Translations under genes and position numbers: made by a program
In this document: positions 4,325 through 9,744 of the stretch, in pieces
How the letters are laid out: each line of letters begins with the position of its first letter
Position numbering within the stretch: position 1 is the first letter of the stretch
The notes under the pieces: generated by a model
Told to the model about the DNA's origin: nothing
The model's input: only the letters and a program-made list of their open reading frames with translations
Database searches by the model: none
Source: Humibacter sp. RRB41
GTDB lineage: Bacteria; Actinomycetota; Actinomycetes; Actinomycetales; Microbacteriaceae
Assembly (NCBI RefSeq): GCF_022761015.1
Contig: NZ_JAKWJQ010000001.1
Coordinates: 62,001-126,000, forward strand
Reading direction: 5' to 3'
Length of the DNA stretch: 64,000 bases

Positions 4325-5020
4325 GTGCGATTGGTTGTTGCCCGGTGTTCGGTGGACTATGCGGGACGCCTGAGCGCCCACCTTCCTCTGGCCACCCGGC
4401 TACTCGTGATCAAGGCCGACGGCAGCCTGCTCGTGCACTCCGACGGCGGTTCGTACAAGCCGCTGAACTGGATGAGCCCGCCCTGCACCTTCGCGGTCTC
4501 CGAGCCGGACGATGTGCAGACGGATGCCGGTGCCACTGAGATCTGGACCGTCACCCACACGAAGACCTCCGACCGTCTCATCGTGAGCGTGCACGAGGTG
4601 CTGCACGATTCCAGCCACGAACTCGGCATCGACCCTGGACTGCAGAAGGACGGCGTCGAGGCTCACCTGCAGAAGCTGCTTGCCGAGCAGCTCGGACTGC
4701 TGGGTGATGGCCACACGCTCGTGCGGCGCGAGTACATGACGGCGATCGGGCCGGTGGACATCCTCGCCAGGGACGGCGACGGACGCTCCGTGGCCATCGA
4801 GTTGAAGCGCCGCGGCGACATCGACGGCGTCGAGCAGCTGACGCGGTATCTCGAACTCATGAACCGCGATCCGCTGCTCTCACCAGTCACCGGGGTGTTC
4901 GCTGCCCAGGAGATCAAACCGCAGGCGCGCACGCTCGCCGAAGATAGGGGCATCCGTTGTCTCGTACTCGACTACGACGCGATGAAAGGCGTCGACAGCG
5001 GAGTTCCGACGCTCTTCTGA
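4325..5020 (+). CDS. nucS: Endonuclease NucS (EndoMS), non-canonical mismatch repair
   Basis: Predicted 231-residue mismatch-specific endonuclease, which replaces MutS/MutL in many actinobacteria by cleaving both strands at G-T, G-G and T-T mismatches. The N-terminal domain ([26 protein letters not shown]) and the C-terminal nuclease domain ([12 protein letters not shown], then [20 protein letters not shown]) match the family along the whole length. The protein ends in PTLF, consistent with a sliding-clamp-binding tail. The start is GTG, supported by homologous N-termini and by a leaderless -10 box. No partner genes are adjacent, which is usual. Confidence 0.96.
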
Positions 5021-5697: not shown

Positions 5698-6393
5698 ATG
5701 AGTATCCCGACTTCCATCATGAGCGAACAGTCCCCCCAGACCACCAGAGCGTGGTCCGCTGTGCTGTTCGACCTCGACGGCACCCTGACCGACTCCGCCC
5801 CCGGCATCACCGCATCGCTCGCCGGCGCACTGGAGGAGATCGGCCGACCCGTCGATGACCCCGACTCCCTGACCGCTCACGTCGGGCCGCCTCTCACCGA
5901 GACGTTCAGTGCACTGGGCCTCGACGACGACGAGGCCGTAAGAGCCACCGCCGCCTACCGTGCGCGCGCCGACTTCACCGACCTGCACGACAACGCCGTG
6001 TTCCCCGGCATGCTCGGAGTGCTTCGCGCGCTGCAGGATGCCGGCATCCCGATCGCGCTGGCGACGAGCAAGCCCGTCAGCCGCGCCACCCGCATCATCG
6101 AGCACTTCGGCCTGCTGCCCTACTTCGATGTCATCGGCGCCGCAGGCGACGACGGCACCCGCAACAGCAAGGCCGAGGTCATCAGATGGGTGCGCGAGCA
6201 GCTGGATGCCCACGGCGTCGACACCTCGAACCTCGTGATGGTGGGCGACCGCGGCCACGACGTGCTCGGCGCTGAGGCGAACGGCATCCCTGTCGTGCTC
6301 GTCGAGTGGGGCTACGGATCACCGGTCGAGGCCGTCGGCGCCACCGCCATCGTGCACTCGGCCGACCAGCTGCGCACCCTGCTCTTGAGCTGA
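5698..6393 (+). CDS. HAD family hydrolase (phosphoglycolate phosphatase-like)
   Basis: Predicted 231-residue HAD-superfamily phosphatase. Motif I is LFDLDGTLTDS, motif II LATSK, the motif III lysine lies in NSKAEVIRW and motif IV is VMVGDRGHDVLGA. A helical cap follows motif I, as in Gph/PpaX enzymes. The substrate is a small phosphate ester, possibly 2-phosphoglycolate or a nucleotide, and cannot be fixed from sequence. Start may be ATG 5698 or the in-frame ATG at 5719. It converges on the FAD gene at 6439. Confidence 0.85.
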   Translation: MSIPTSIMSEQSPQTTRAWSAVLFDLDGTLTDSAPGITASLAGALEEIGRPVDDPDSLTAHVGPPLTETFSALGLDDDEAVRATAAYRARADFTDLHDNAVFPGMLGVLRALQDAGIPIALATSKPVSRATRIIEHFGLLPYFDVIGAAGDDGTRNSKAEVIRWVREQLDAHGVDTSNLVMVGDRGHDVLGAEANGIPVVLVEWGYGSPVEAVGATAIVHSADQLRTLLLS

Positions 6394-6438: not shown

Positions 6439-7503
6439 TCAGCGGGCCAAGCGCTCGACTATTCCCGCGTACACCCGCGGCAGCCGAACGGCCGTCGGCA
6501 CGATCGCCGTTCGCAGCGGCGATCCGGCAGCCGTGACCAGCCCGCCGGTCAGCATGCGGAAATCCCGCGTGATGTGCGTCCACTCCCGCTCGTAACCTCG
6601 CGGGTCCTCTGCCACGACCGCCGCGACGGCCGCTTCGGCCTGCGCGATTCCGAGCCGTAGCCCCTCACCGGTGAGCGCGTCGACGTATCCGGACGCGTCG
6701 CCGACCAGCAGCACCCGGCCCGCCGTGCGAGCACGCGTGCGCTGCTGTAGAGGCCCGGCACCGCGCACGTGGCCGACCTGGGCGGGAGACTCGCCATCAG
6801 CGTCCGCTCCGATCCGCTCGGCCAGCTCTGGCTCGTCGGCGAGCGCCGACTCGAAGCTCGCACCCCGACGACCGAGCAACGCGAGTCCGACGAGGTCGGG
6901 TCCGAGTGGCGTGACGTAGAACTCGGCGCTCGGCGTCCAGCGCACCTCGATCAGATCGCTCCACGGCGCCAGCGCGTAGTGCCTGCGCACTCCGAATCGG
7001 CGGCGGGATGCCCGCTGCGGCCCCGCACCGAGCCCGACGAGCTCCCGCACACGCGAGTGCAGCCCGTCGGCGCCGACCACGTGCGCGGCTGTCAGAGTCT
7101 CGAGGCCTGGACCGCCCAGAATGACGTACGAGTCGTGCTGGGTGATGGCATCCGCTCGACCCCGCACGACACGGATGCCTCGCTCCGCCACCCGAGCAGC
7201 GATCGCGGCATGCAGCGTCGTGCGCTTCACGCCACGGCCGATGCCGCGCTCGAACCGGTGTTCTGCGCGCCGCGCACCCTGCACATACGCGACTCCGAGA
7301 AGATCGGCGCCTGGAGGCTCGAGGCCCAGACGGCGCAGCAGTCGCCACGCGCCCGGCATCAGGCCCTCGCCGCACGCCTTGTCGATCGGCGCCTCGCGCG
7401 GTTCGATCACCACGACGTCGAGCCCTGCGTCGGCGGCGAACAGCGCCGTCATCAGCCCGATCGGACCGCCACCGACGACGGCGACCTGAACGTCGGGCGT
7501 CAC
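6439..7503 (-). CDS. FAD-dependent oxygenase (geranylgeranyl-reductase/SrsC-like)
   Basis: Predicted 354-residue flavoprotein. A dinucleotide-binding motif starts at residue 6 (VAVVGGGPIGLMTALFAADAG), ACGEGLMPGA is typical of the geranylgeranyl reductase/aromatic hydroxylase branch, and VLLVGDASGYVDALTGEGL is the second FAD motif. It is the last gene of the operon with the type III PKS and methyltransferase; its GTG start overlaps the methyltransferase stop as GTGA. By analogy with SrsC it would hydroxylate an alkylresorcinol to a quinol that oxidises to a quinone. The frame runs upstream to 8061, but that part belongs to the neighbour. Confidence 0.85.
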   Translation of the reverse strand: MTPDVQVAVVGGGPIGLMTALFAADAGLDVVVIEPREAPIDKACGEGLMPGAWRLLRRLGLEPPGADLLGVAYVQGARRAEHRFERGIGRGVKRTTLHAAIAARVAERGIRVVRGRADAITQHDSYVILGGPGLETLTAAHVVGADGLHSRVRELVGLGAGPQRASRRRFGVRRHYALAPWSDLIEVRWTPSAEFYVTPLGPDLVGLALLGRRGASFESALADEPELAERIGADADGESPAQVGHVRGAGPLQQRTRARTAGRVLLVGDASGYVDALTGEGLRLGIAQAEAAVAAVVAEDPRGYEREWTHITRDFRMLTGGLVTAAGSPLRTAIVPTAVRLPRVYAGIVERLAR

Positions 7504-8039
7504 CCGCGCCCCGGTGGTCGAGTGGCAGTGGCGAGATCCGACAGCGCGCGTTCCTCTGCGGGAATGCGGAACCCGCCGAGGAACACCGCATTCAGCACCG
7601 TGAAGGCGATGGCCGTGATCCACCCCGTGTACACCAGCGGCAGAGCGGCACCCTCGACCGCGACGGCCAGATAGTTCGGATGCGGCAGCCACCTGTACGG
7701 CCCGCGAGTCACCGCGCTCAGCCCCGGCACGACGATGACACGCGTATTCCACTGCGGGCCGAGCGTGCGGATGCACCACCAGCGCAACGCGTTCGCGAGC
7801 AGCACGAGCGCCAGCATCGGCCAGCCCAGCCACGGCAGGAAGACGCGGCCGGCGAACCAGACCTCGGCGAGGCAACCTACGAGCAGCCCGACGTGCAGCA
7901 CGATCATCGGCGCCACCTGCCCGCGGGCGTATTCCTTGCCGCCGTGCGCGAACGACCACCTGGCGTTGCGCGCAGAGACCACGAGCTCGGCGACCCGCTC
8001 GAACCCCACGAGCACGATGAACGCGGTGTACCAGATCAC
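7500..8039 (-). CDS. Isoprenylcysteine carboxyl methyltransferase-family protein (SrsB-like)
   Basis: Predicted 179-residue membrane methyltransferase of the ICMT superfamily with about four or five hydrophobic segments. RGPYRWLPHPNYLAV is the conserved S-adenosylmethionine-binding region. It starts at GTG 8039, overlapping the PKS stop as GTGA, and its own stop overlaps the next GTG, so the three genes are translationally coupled. Bacterial ICMT-like proteins next to type III PKS genes methylate phenolic hydroxyls of alkylresorcinols (SrsB in Streptomyces griseus). Protein prenyl-cysteine methylation is unlikely in a bacterium. Confidence 0.85.
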   Translation of the reverse strand: MIWYTAFIVLVGFERVAELVVSARNARWSFAHGGKEYARGQVAPMIVLHVGLLVGCLAEVWFAGRVFLPWLGWPMLALVLLANALRWWCIRTLGPQWNTRVIVVPGLSAVTRGPYRWLPHPNYLAVAVEGAALPLVYTGWITAIAFTVLNAVFLGGFRIPAEERALSDLATATRPPGRG

Positions 8040-9142
8040 GCGGCGATATTCCCCGACGCATCCTCCAGCGGGGCAGGATGCTCCGGCCAGCGCAACAGCA
8101 CGAGCTCGGCCGTCACGCCGGGGCCGAGCGCGAACAGCAGGCCGGTCTCCCCCGGCGCAGGGGTGCGGAGCGCGTCGGCGAGGATGCCCAGCACCGCGGC
8201 CGACGACTGGTTGCCCGTCGCGGCAAGCGCGCGCCAGCTCGGCGCCAGTGCGGCATCCGTCAGTCCGAGGGCCGTGGCGAACGCCTCGAGCACCTTCGGG
8301 CCGCCGGGATGCGCGAGCCACGTCGACACGTCGCCGACGCTGAGACCGTGCTCGCCGAGCAGCGCGTGAACATCCCCGGCGAAGTGCTTCGCTATCACGT
8401 CAGGAACGCCGGCGCTGAGCACGATGCGGAAGCCGCTGCCGCCGATGTCCCAGCCGATCACATCCTCGGTCTGCGGATAGAGACTGCTGCGGGTATCGAT
8501 CACGTCCGGGCCGTCGAGGCCGCGTTCTGCGGCGAAGTCATCGCCGACGACCACCACAGCGGCGGCACCGTCACCGAACAGCCCGCTGGCCACGATGTTG
8601 GCCATCGAGTCGTCACCGAGCTGCACGGTCAGCGAACACAACTCGACCGAGACGAGCACGGCGACGTCGTGCGGATGCCCGACCAGGTAGTCGTGCACGC
8701 GCGCCAGCCCCGCGGCGCCCGCAACGCATCCGAGGCCGAACGACGGCAGCCGCTTCACGTCACTGCGCATGCCGACGCGGGTCGCCAGCTGCGCGTCGAT
8801 CGACGGCGCGGCCACTCCGGTCACCGAGGTGAAAAGCACGAAGTCGACCTCGTCGGCGCGGATGCCGGCCGAGCTCAAAGCATCCCTCGTCGCCTGTTCG
8901 GCCAGGTCCGTGCCCGCCGAGATGAAGAGGTCGTTGGCTTCGTGGAACGAGTCGAGGCCGGAGTACCGGTCGAGCTCCATCACGAGGTTGCGGTTCTCGA
9001 CGCCCGACGACGCGTGGATGCGCCGCATCACGGCGGCCCGCCCAGGATCGTGTGTCAGCAATGGTTCGAGCACACCGGTGATCTCCGCCTGCGAATAGCG
9101 GTGAACGGGGACGGCCGGCGCGGCCGCCACGATACGGGACAC
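8036..9142 (-). CDS. Type III polyketide synthase (chalcone/stilbene synthase family)
   Basis: Predicted 368-residue homodimeric ketosynthase that extends an acyl-CoA starter with malonyl-CoA. The catalytic triad is visible: Cys139 in FGLGCVAGA, His278 in WLAHPGGPK and Asn311 in ATGNQSSA. The last part (LFALGPGVTAELVLLRW) is the family C-terminus. It is first in a GTGA-coupled operon with an ICMT-like methyltransferase and an FAD oxygenase. That order equals srsA-srsB-srsC, so an alkylresorcinol or alkylpyrone, later methylated and oxidised to a membrane phenolic lipid, is the likely product. The start is GTG with no Shine-Dalgarno; a TACTTT box 6 bases upstream suggests a leaderless mRNA. 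Confidence 0.93.
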   Translation of the reverse strand: MSRIVAAAPAVPVHRYSQAEITGVLEPLLTHDPGRAAVMRRIHASSGVENRNLVMELDRYSGLDSFHEANDLFISAGTDLAEQATRDALSSAGIRADEVDFVLFTSVTGVAAPSIDAQLATRVGMRSDVKRLPSFGLGCVAGAAGLARVHDYLVGHPHDVAVLVSVELCSLTVQLGDDSMANIVASGLFGDGAAAVVVVGDDFAAERGLDGPDVIDTRSSLYPQTEDVIGWDIGGSGFRIVLSAGVPDVIAKHFAGDVHALLGEHGLSVGDVSTWLAHPGGPKVLEAFATALGLTDAALAPSWRALAATGNQSSAAVLGILADALRTPAPGETGLLFALGPGVTAELVLLRWPEHPAPLEDASGNIAA

Positions 9143-9148
9143 AGGGGG

Positions 9149-9154
9149 AAAGTA
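9149..9154 (-). promoter_or_regulatory. -10 box of the PKS operon (leaderless)
   Basis: On the minus strand TACTTT ends 6 bases before the GTG start at 9142. No ribosome site is present between them. A matching -35 box is not evident. Confidence 0.4.
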
Positions 9155-9264
9155 CCACGGGGCTCCCCGGCCATTTGAGCCTCAGGGCGGATGCGCAGTG
9201 GGGGCGGTTCACCGCGAATCAGGACATGGGTGACGCCGCGGACATATCCGGTGCGGCGGCCCGA

Positions 9265-9636
9265 TCAGCCTCGCACCGGCATCTGCTGCAGCGTCCACCG
9301 GTTGCCGTCCGGGTCCTCGAACGTGACGAACCGGCCCCATGCGAGGTCCTCCACCTCGCTCGCGTCGACGCCGTTGGCGATGAGTTGCTCCCGGGCGGCA
9401 TCCGCGTCGTCGATCACCATCTGCACACCCCGCTGGCTGCCGACGGGCATCTCGGTCAGACCCTTGCCGAACGCGATCGAGCACGCCGATCCTGGCGGAG
9501 TGATCTGCACGAAGCGGATCTCGTCGCTCACGGTCTGGTCATAGTCGACATTGAATCCGAGCTGGTCTGCGTAGAAGTGCTTCGCCCGGTCGACATCGCT
9601 CACCGGAACGAAGATGAGCTCGATCTTGAAGTCCAT
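9265..9636 (-). CDS. VOC family (glyoxalase/bleomycin resistance-like) protein
   Basis: Predicted 123-residue vicinal-oxygen-chelate protein with one beta-alpha-beta-beta-beta pair (IELIFVPVSDVDRAKHFYAD; FVTFEDPDGNRWTLQQMP). Such proteins act as small metal-dependent lyases, dioxygenases or binding proteins; the substrate is not known here. The ATG at 9636 has a clear AAAAGGAGA ribosome site; a longer frame upstream is not needed. It is divergent from the WYL regulator at 9762, with a dyad at 9718-9744 between them. Confidence 0.85.
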   Translation of the reverse strand: MDFKIELIFVPVSDVDRAKHFYADQLGFNVDYDQTVSDEIRFVQITPPGSACSIAFGKGLTEMPVGSQRGVQMVIDDADAAREQLIANGVDASEVEDLAWGRFVTFEDPDGNRWTLQQMPVRG

Positions 9637-9717
9637 GGGGATTCTCCTTTTCGTTTTCGTTTCGCCTCGATCCGGATGCCGCGGCGCGACTCGAACCGAC
9701 ACCCTCACGCTACGAAG

Positions 9718-9744
9718 CAATCAGGTCAGATTTCGTCCTGATTG
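9718..9744. promoter_or_regulatory. inverted repeat, candidate WYL-regulator operator
   Basis: CAATCAGG (9718-9725) and CCTGATTG (9737-9744) are exact inverse complements, their centres 19 bases apart (about two helical turns). The site lies just before the start of the regulator and in the shared region with the divergent VOC gene, so autoregulation and control of the VOC gene are likely. Confidence 0.6.

Follow-up and report, generated by a model that had tools for sequence, protein, structure and literature searches.

An operon of three overlapping genes

The window, by which we mean the whole stretch of 64,000 nucleotides analysed, carries three overlapping genes on its minus strand. The first one to be read encodes a type III polyketide synthase (PKS) resembling SrsA, Pks11 and PkqA (8036..9142, minus strand; 368 aa, GTG start, TGA stop at 8038-8036), the second an ICMT-family membrane methyltransferase resembling SrsB and PkqB (7500..8039, minus strand; 179 aa, GTG start at 8039-8037) and the third a putative FAD monooxygenase resembling SrsC and PkqC (6439..7503, minus strand; 354 aa, GTG start at 7503-7501). 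Direct reading of the frames confirmed what an earlier note had described, namely a PKS, an ICMT-like methyltransferase and an FAD oxygenase joined by two GTGA overlaps, where the PKS stop meets the methyltransferase start (8036..8039, minus strand) and the methyltransferase stop meets the start of the FAD gene (7500..7503, minus strand). All Pfam domains scored above their curated cut-offs: Chal_sti_synt_N and Chal_sti_synt_C at 63.4 and 60.4 bits in the PKS, ICMT (PF04140) at 92.5 bits in the methyltransferase and FAD_binding_3 (PF01494) at 73.9 bits in the FAD protein. In a Pfam search of the 3.9-Mb genome, the operon PKS was the single match to the Chal_sti_synt family.

A HAD-type hydrolase gene (5698-6393, plus strand) is convergent with the operon, and a glyoxalase-family gene (9265-9720, minus strand) lies upstream on the same strand; neither was counted as part of it. 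A NucS gene (4325-5020, plus strand) is also convergent. Among the best 80 of 566 loci, HAD and NucS genes were found near the operon in 28/80 and 23/80, always on the convergent strand. The closest named relatives of the PKS among the matches listed belong to Leifsonia (70% identity), in keeping with the Microbacteriaceae-like genome that the earlier note had proposed.

Conservation of the trio and of the gene overlaps

The named public loci compared here are the best 80 of 566 confirmed stretches and thus represent the closest relatives of the window rather than a random draw. An ICMT gene followed the PKS gene in 79/80 of them and an FAD gene came next in 76/80, which argues against a chance set of open reading frames. 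Four named loci lacked the FAD gene: two stop at a contig edge (L115 and L150), one holds the ICMT gene only (L133) and one neither partner (L134). The latter two, of which L133 is titled Acidobacteria, are metagenome-assembled, and they keep the PKS gene with the partner or partners missing despite room on the contig. In a first sample of 25 srs-type loci, including the window, ICMT was present in 25/25 and FAD in all 23 with a continuing contig (the contigs of L014 and L016 end before FAD, and the FAD match of L021 is partial).

The overlaps were less constant. Four-nucleotide overlaps occurred at 44/79 PKS/ICMT junctions and 53/76 ICMT/FAD junctions of the same best 80 of 566 loci, and in one congener (L032) a 100-nt gap separates PKS and ICMT. 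Because the overlaps vary even within the genus, the fixed protein ratio expected in the earlier note had to be given up; read from the sequence, the GTGA overlaps suggest translational coupling with no fixed ratio.

The PKS belongs to the SrsA/Pks11 clade and keeps the key tryptophan

Among solved structures, the PKS matched Pks11 of M. tuberculosis (PDB 4jao) at 343 bits, with the next solved relatives at 162 bits or less. In a tree of 73 rows, built by a quick method without bootstrap, 62 srs-type rows (the window PKS among them) and Pks11 were divided from 10 rows of a second kind of type III PKS, here called PKS2, by a branch with 100% SH-aLRT. The Streptomyces srs-type PKSs and Pks11 fall inside the srs-type clade, and the window PKS groups with its congeners. 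The Cys-His-Asn triad (C139, H278 and N311) was found in 81/81 srs-type sequences. W231 of the window PKS aligns with W230 of Pks11, which is the ArsB W281 position in the numbering of the literature. Of the same 81 sequences, 50 have Trp at this position, 30 have Phe and 1 has Leu, and two changes on the tree are needed to account for the Trp and Phe states. Phe occurs for example in L088, L108, L116 and L124, Subtercola being one of the Phe-bearing relatives, and srs-type PKSs of this sort may, judging from the residue, make other products.

We considered whether the main product could be alkyl-alpha-pyrones, capped by the methyltransferase, with the FAD enzyme acting elsewhere. A type III PKS and a methyltransferase of Bacillus subtilis reportedly yield methyl-capped alkyl-alpha-pyrones. 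Moreover, Pks11, whose crystal structure is known, makes methyl-branched alkylpyrones in vitro (PMC6274091), so that membership of the clade leaves the product unfixed. Three features speak for a resorcinol: the Trp at the ArsB-281 position, which three papers tie to resorcinol formation, favoured over pyrone (PMC5916927, PMC6274091, PMC9927152); the FAD hydroxylase, unneeded for pyrones and kept in 76 of the best 80 of 566 loci; and the PKS-methyltransferase-oxidoreductase trio of Streptomyces MNU77, which makes polyketide quinones (PMC9927152). We regard pyrones as an unlikely main product.

Starter choice was weighed in the same way. SCO7671, whose operon is laid out like srsABC (PMC4573997), worked efficiently in vitro with benzoyl-CoA and isobutyryl-CoA (PMC6274091), as would suit short or aromatic starters and a small, non-lipid product here. 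However, Pks11 of the same clade accepts C16- and C18-CoA starters (PMC6274091), the homologous MNU77 operon gives C14-C19 chains in vivo (PMC9927152), and a membrane methyltransferase would fit a lipid substrate. We consider a small non-lipid product very improbable.

The methyltransferase and the FAD protein

The motifs GPYR and HPNY were invariant in 21 aligned ICMT sequences, and the ICMT-family protein of the window has hydropathy peaks. For the FAD protein, a model predicted from a 60-row alignment reached a mean pLDDT of 93.3 (35 for a single-sequence model), and a structure search placed it in the group A flavin monooxygenase fold. The best fold matches were the halogenases PltA, ChlB4 and Bmp2 (Z 36.8-34.7, with PltA at 36.8), p-hydroxybenzoate hydroxylase coming below them at Z 32.8. 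This raises the prospect of a halogenase, with a halogenated alkylresorcinol ether as end product. Yet the fold is common to p-hydroxybenzoate hydroxylase, to UbiH (Foldseek matches) and to squalene epoxidase as well. Phenolic flavin halogenases carry a characteristic lysine motif. As visual inspection of the FAD-family consensus did not reveal this motif, the protein was taken, with some doubt, as a monooxygenase and not a halogenase. SrsC-type enzymes are reported as hydroxylases (PMC9927152), and halogenation seems to us the least probable of the alternatives considered. Geranylgeranyl reductase was also tried as an identity for the FAD protein and rejected, the NCBIfam score being below its cut-off; none was named among the 50 matches listed in each fold search, which is weak evidence.

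A predicted leaderless extended -10 promoter before the PKS gene

The sequence directly before the PKS start in the window reads GTGGTACTTTCCCCCT-GTG. An extended -10 element, TGGTACTTT, lies at 9149..9157 on the minus strand, its hexamer occupying positions -12 to -7 relative to the start codon of the PKS gene. We looked for the same arrangement in 101 srs-type loci, of which 2 were dropped because the first aligned residue did not correspond to a start codon, leaving 99. TANNNT began at -12 in 54/99 and at -13 to -11 in 65/99, and 13 other upstream intervals of three offsets gave 0 to 3 of 99 each. TG stood at the extended position in 55 of the 65 loci with the element. By gene, in the 80 named loci, the element preceded PKS in 50/80, ICMT in 2/78 and FAD in 1/76. 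Other long open reading frames, used as control, gave 31/285 with any start among the first 40 codons accepted, and 3/285 when the test was shifted by 30 nt. The loci are related, hence not independent cases, but their similarity is much lower in the bases flanking the element.

A -10 hexamer at a locked distance from the PKS start points to a leaderless mRNA, and the pattern predicts that the operon mRNA starts at 9142, from the extended -10 element. Among the 34/99 loci without the element are four of the S. griseus group, which, unlike the window, have a Shine-Dalgarno-like AGGAGG or AGGAGC before the PKS. At PKS2 loci, such an element was seen at some candidate start in 13/26. A leaderless promoter at srs-type PKS genes was not met in the literature searched.

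Extender supply, menaquinone and the proposed pathway

The polyketide quinones of Streptomyces MNU77 and their intermediates bear a ring methyl (PMC9927152). By analogy, the ring methyl of the known polyketide quinones would come from a methylmalonyl-CoA extender, in line with the methylmalonyl-CoA use reported for Pks11 (PMC6274091). We asked whether this extender could be supplied in Microbacteriaceae. MM_CoA_mutase gave no match in the genome of the window, while the control search was positive in 8/14 known genomes. In a survey of 59 chosen genomes it was found in 0/52 from Microbacteriaceae (45 srs-type and 7 PKS2, the window's genome included) and in 5/7 srs-type genomes from other families of the order. 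The window's genome has two carboxyltransferase genes, so methylmalonyl-CoA could be made by carboxylation of propionyl-CoA. The missing mutase in genomes of the family nonetheless suggests that the ring methyl is perhaps absent from the Microbacteriaceae product; from the gene content, malonyl-CoA alone may serve as extender, and the product would then lack the methyl group that the Streptomyces quinones bear on their ring. A clear-cut expectation for mass spectrometry follows from the missing mutase: a ring lighter by 14 Da. We did not meet this mutase argument in the literature searched. A menB gene (417 bits) is also present in the genome, and a gene of the UbiA family lies about 2.5 kb from it, so any alkylquinone would be additional to menaquinone.

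We think it likely that the locus is an srsABC/pkqABC operon, transcribed leftward without a leader, whose product is a long-chain alkylresorcinol, O-methylated and then oxidised to a membrane methoxy-alkylbenzoquinone. This proposal builds on the observed gene order, family membership, catalytic residues, fold, promoter pattern and menB and on the mutase not being found. Transcription would run leftward from the extended -10 element that directly precedes the PKS gene, giving a leaderless mRNA. The PKS would load a long fatty acyl chain, probably iso or anteiso, the usual membrane fatty acids of Microbacteriaceae, and three extensions followed by aldol ring closure would give an alkylresorcylic acid or an alkylresorcinol. 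The membrane ICMT-type enzyme would then O-methylate this alkylresorcinol-type product, and the FAD monooxygenase would hydroxylate the ring, so that the resulting hydroquinone could oxidise to a methoxy-alkylbenzoquinone residing in the membrane beside menaquinone. The starter, the product, its membrane role and its electron carrying are what we infer from these observations. The suggestion in the earlier note of an srsABC-like phenolic-lipid operon in the Streptomyces srs order thus held for family, order and likely chemistry, as judged from sequence, tree and fold.

Relation to known systems

The features that define srsABC and pkqABC are found together in the window: a PKS of the SrsA/Pks11 clade with the triad, an ICMT gene directly downstream, an FAD gene third on the same strand, and the ArsB-281 Trp. 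The operon of S. globisporus JCM 4378 (L138) has the same order and strand, with proteins 55% (PKS), 63% (ICMT) and 49% (FAD) identical to those of the window. S. globisporus is a close kin of S. griseus, the species of srsABC and its phenolic lipids. Triad and Trp are kept in the window PKS as in srsABC of Streptomyces, from whose product that of the window may differ by the absent ring methyl. The pkqABC operons of Mycobacterium smegmatis and Streptomyces MNU77 likewise join PKS, methyltransferase and oxidoreductase and have the key Trp; their quinones bear the ring methyl (PMC9927152), whereas the mutase was found in 0/52 Microbacteriaceae genomes.

Within the family, srsABC homologues with a nearby HAD hydrolase gene, as in the window, are reported in Marisediminicola antarctica ZS314, and there too the operon is a prediction (PMC6669644). 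In Microbacterium, several types of pks11/pks18 cluster are described that follow its phylogeny (PMC7438953). Therefore, this kind of operon is already known from Microbacteriaceae and not new to them. Marisediminicola senii (L116) differs from the window in having Phe at the key Trp position. More distant are hidABC of cyanobacteria and an operon of Planctomycetota, linked to hierridins and alkylresorcinols, which combine a type III PKS, a methyltransferase and an FAD oxidoreductase as in the window, but in the order methyltransferase-oxidoreductase-PKS instead of PKS-ICMT-FAD (PMC10896814).

The srs-type operon alternates with a second cassette

The operon is ordinary by itself; its distribution is not. 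Among the first 59 relatives, with classes read from the matches, 25 had an srs-type PKS, 16 had PKS2 (33-40% identical) and none had both. Downstream of PKS2, 16/16 loci encode a soluble class I methyltransferase and 11/16 an FAD_binding_3 protein. Judged from gene order, the PKS2 cassette is laid out like the srs-type operon, but its methyltransferase is unrelated and its third gene optional. PKS2 cassettes were seen in relatives at L052-L067, L071-L074 and L076-L081. The FAD gene is missing in 5/16 PKS2 cassettes and in loci L071-L074 of genus g76 (L074 being a short contig), so the end products of the two cassettes need not match.

We then turned to 299 Microbacteriaceae genomes at least 95% complete, classified by the best E-value among the matches listed, read by eye. 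Results showed srs-type in 96, PKS2 in 139, neither in 64 and both in 0, so that 235/299 of these near-complete genomes hold one kind or the other; about 45/299 with both would be expected by chance if genomes were independent. Taking one genome per genus (76 genera) gave srs-type 31, PKS2 29, neither 16 and both 0 (Fisher 8e-10, kinship ignored). A direct search found PKS2 in 0/70 srs-type genomes (69 of the 96 plus G002), its positive control recovering 10/10 PKS2 genomes at E < 1e-97; for the remaining 27 of the 96, absence was read from the matches listed, with 6 candidates scored. The remaining families of the order contributed at most 227 genomes; PKS2 was found in 31 of these, srs-type in about 55 (48 confirmed by the srs-type query, 7 by E-value only) and both in 0, where about 7.5 were expected (Fisher 9e-5, kinship ignored). 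Within the single genus g46, 7 genomes are srs-type and 4 are PKS2.

Three genera contain both kinds in different species: g1, which is that of the window, g76 and g96. In the stretches compared, with crude gene calls, no flanking genes were common to both kinds in these genera. The two cassettes thus appear to lie at different loci, and replacement in place was rejected on this ground. We have moderate confidence that the alternation reflects functional replacement of one cassette by the other; old inheritance can also be the source of such a pattern. A broader reading, which we put forward tentatively and think somewhat doubtful, is that Micrococcales possess one "alkylquinone slot", filled by the srsABC-type trio or by the PKS2 cassette and never by both together, the srs-type product of Microbacteriaceae lacking the ring methyl because the mutase route is absent. 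If this were true, the order would keep alkylquinones by non-orthologous replacement, as a core trait of its membrane or respiration rather than as a secondary metabolite. The alternation of the two cassettes was not met in the literature searched, and it makes the purpose of bacterial phenolic lipids approachable by a cassette-swap experiment.

A few genomes depart from the two main kinds. The PKS match is broken or split in G210, G218 and G222. Type III PKSs of yet another, third kind (26-42% identity with the PKS2 query) occur in G094 (contig C24, L082), which has PKS2 as well, and in six genomes of genus g116 (G362, G399, G411, G423, G445 and G465), the last of which, from outside the family and with 7% contamination, has two genes of this kind.
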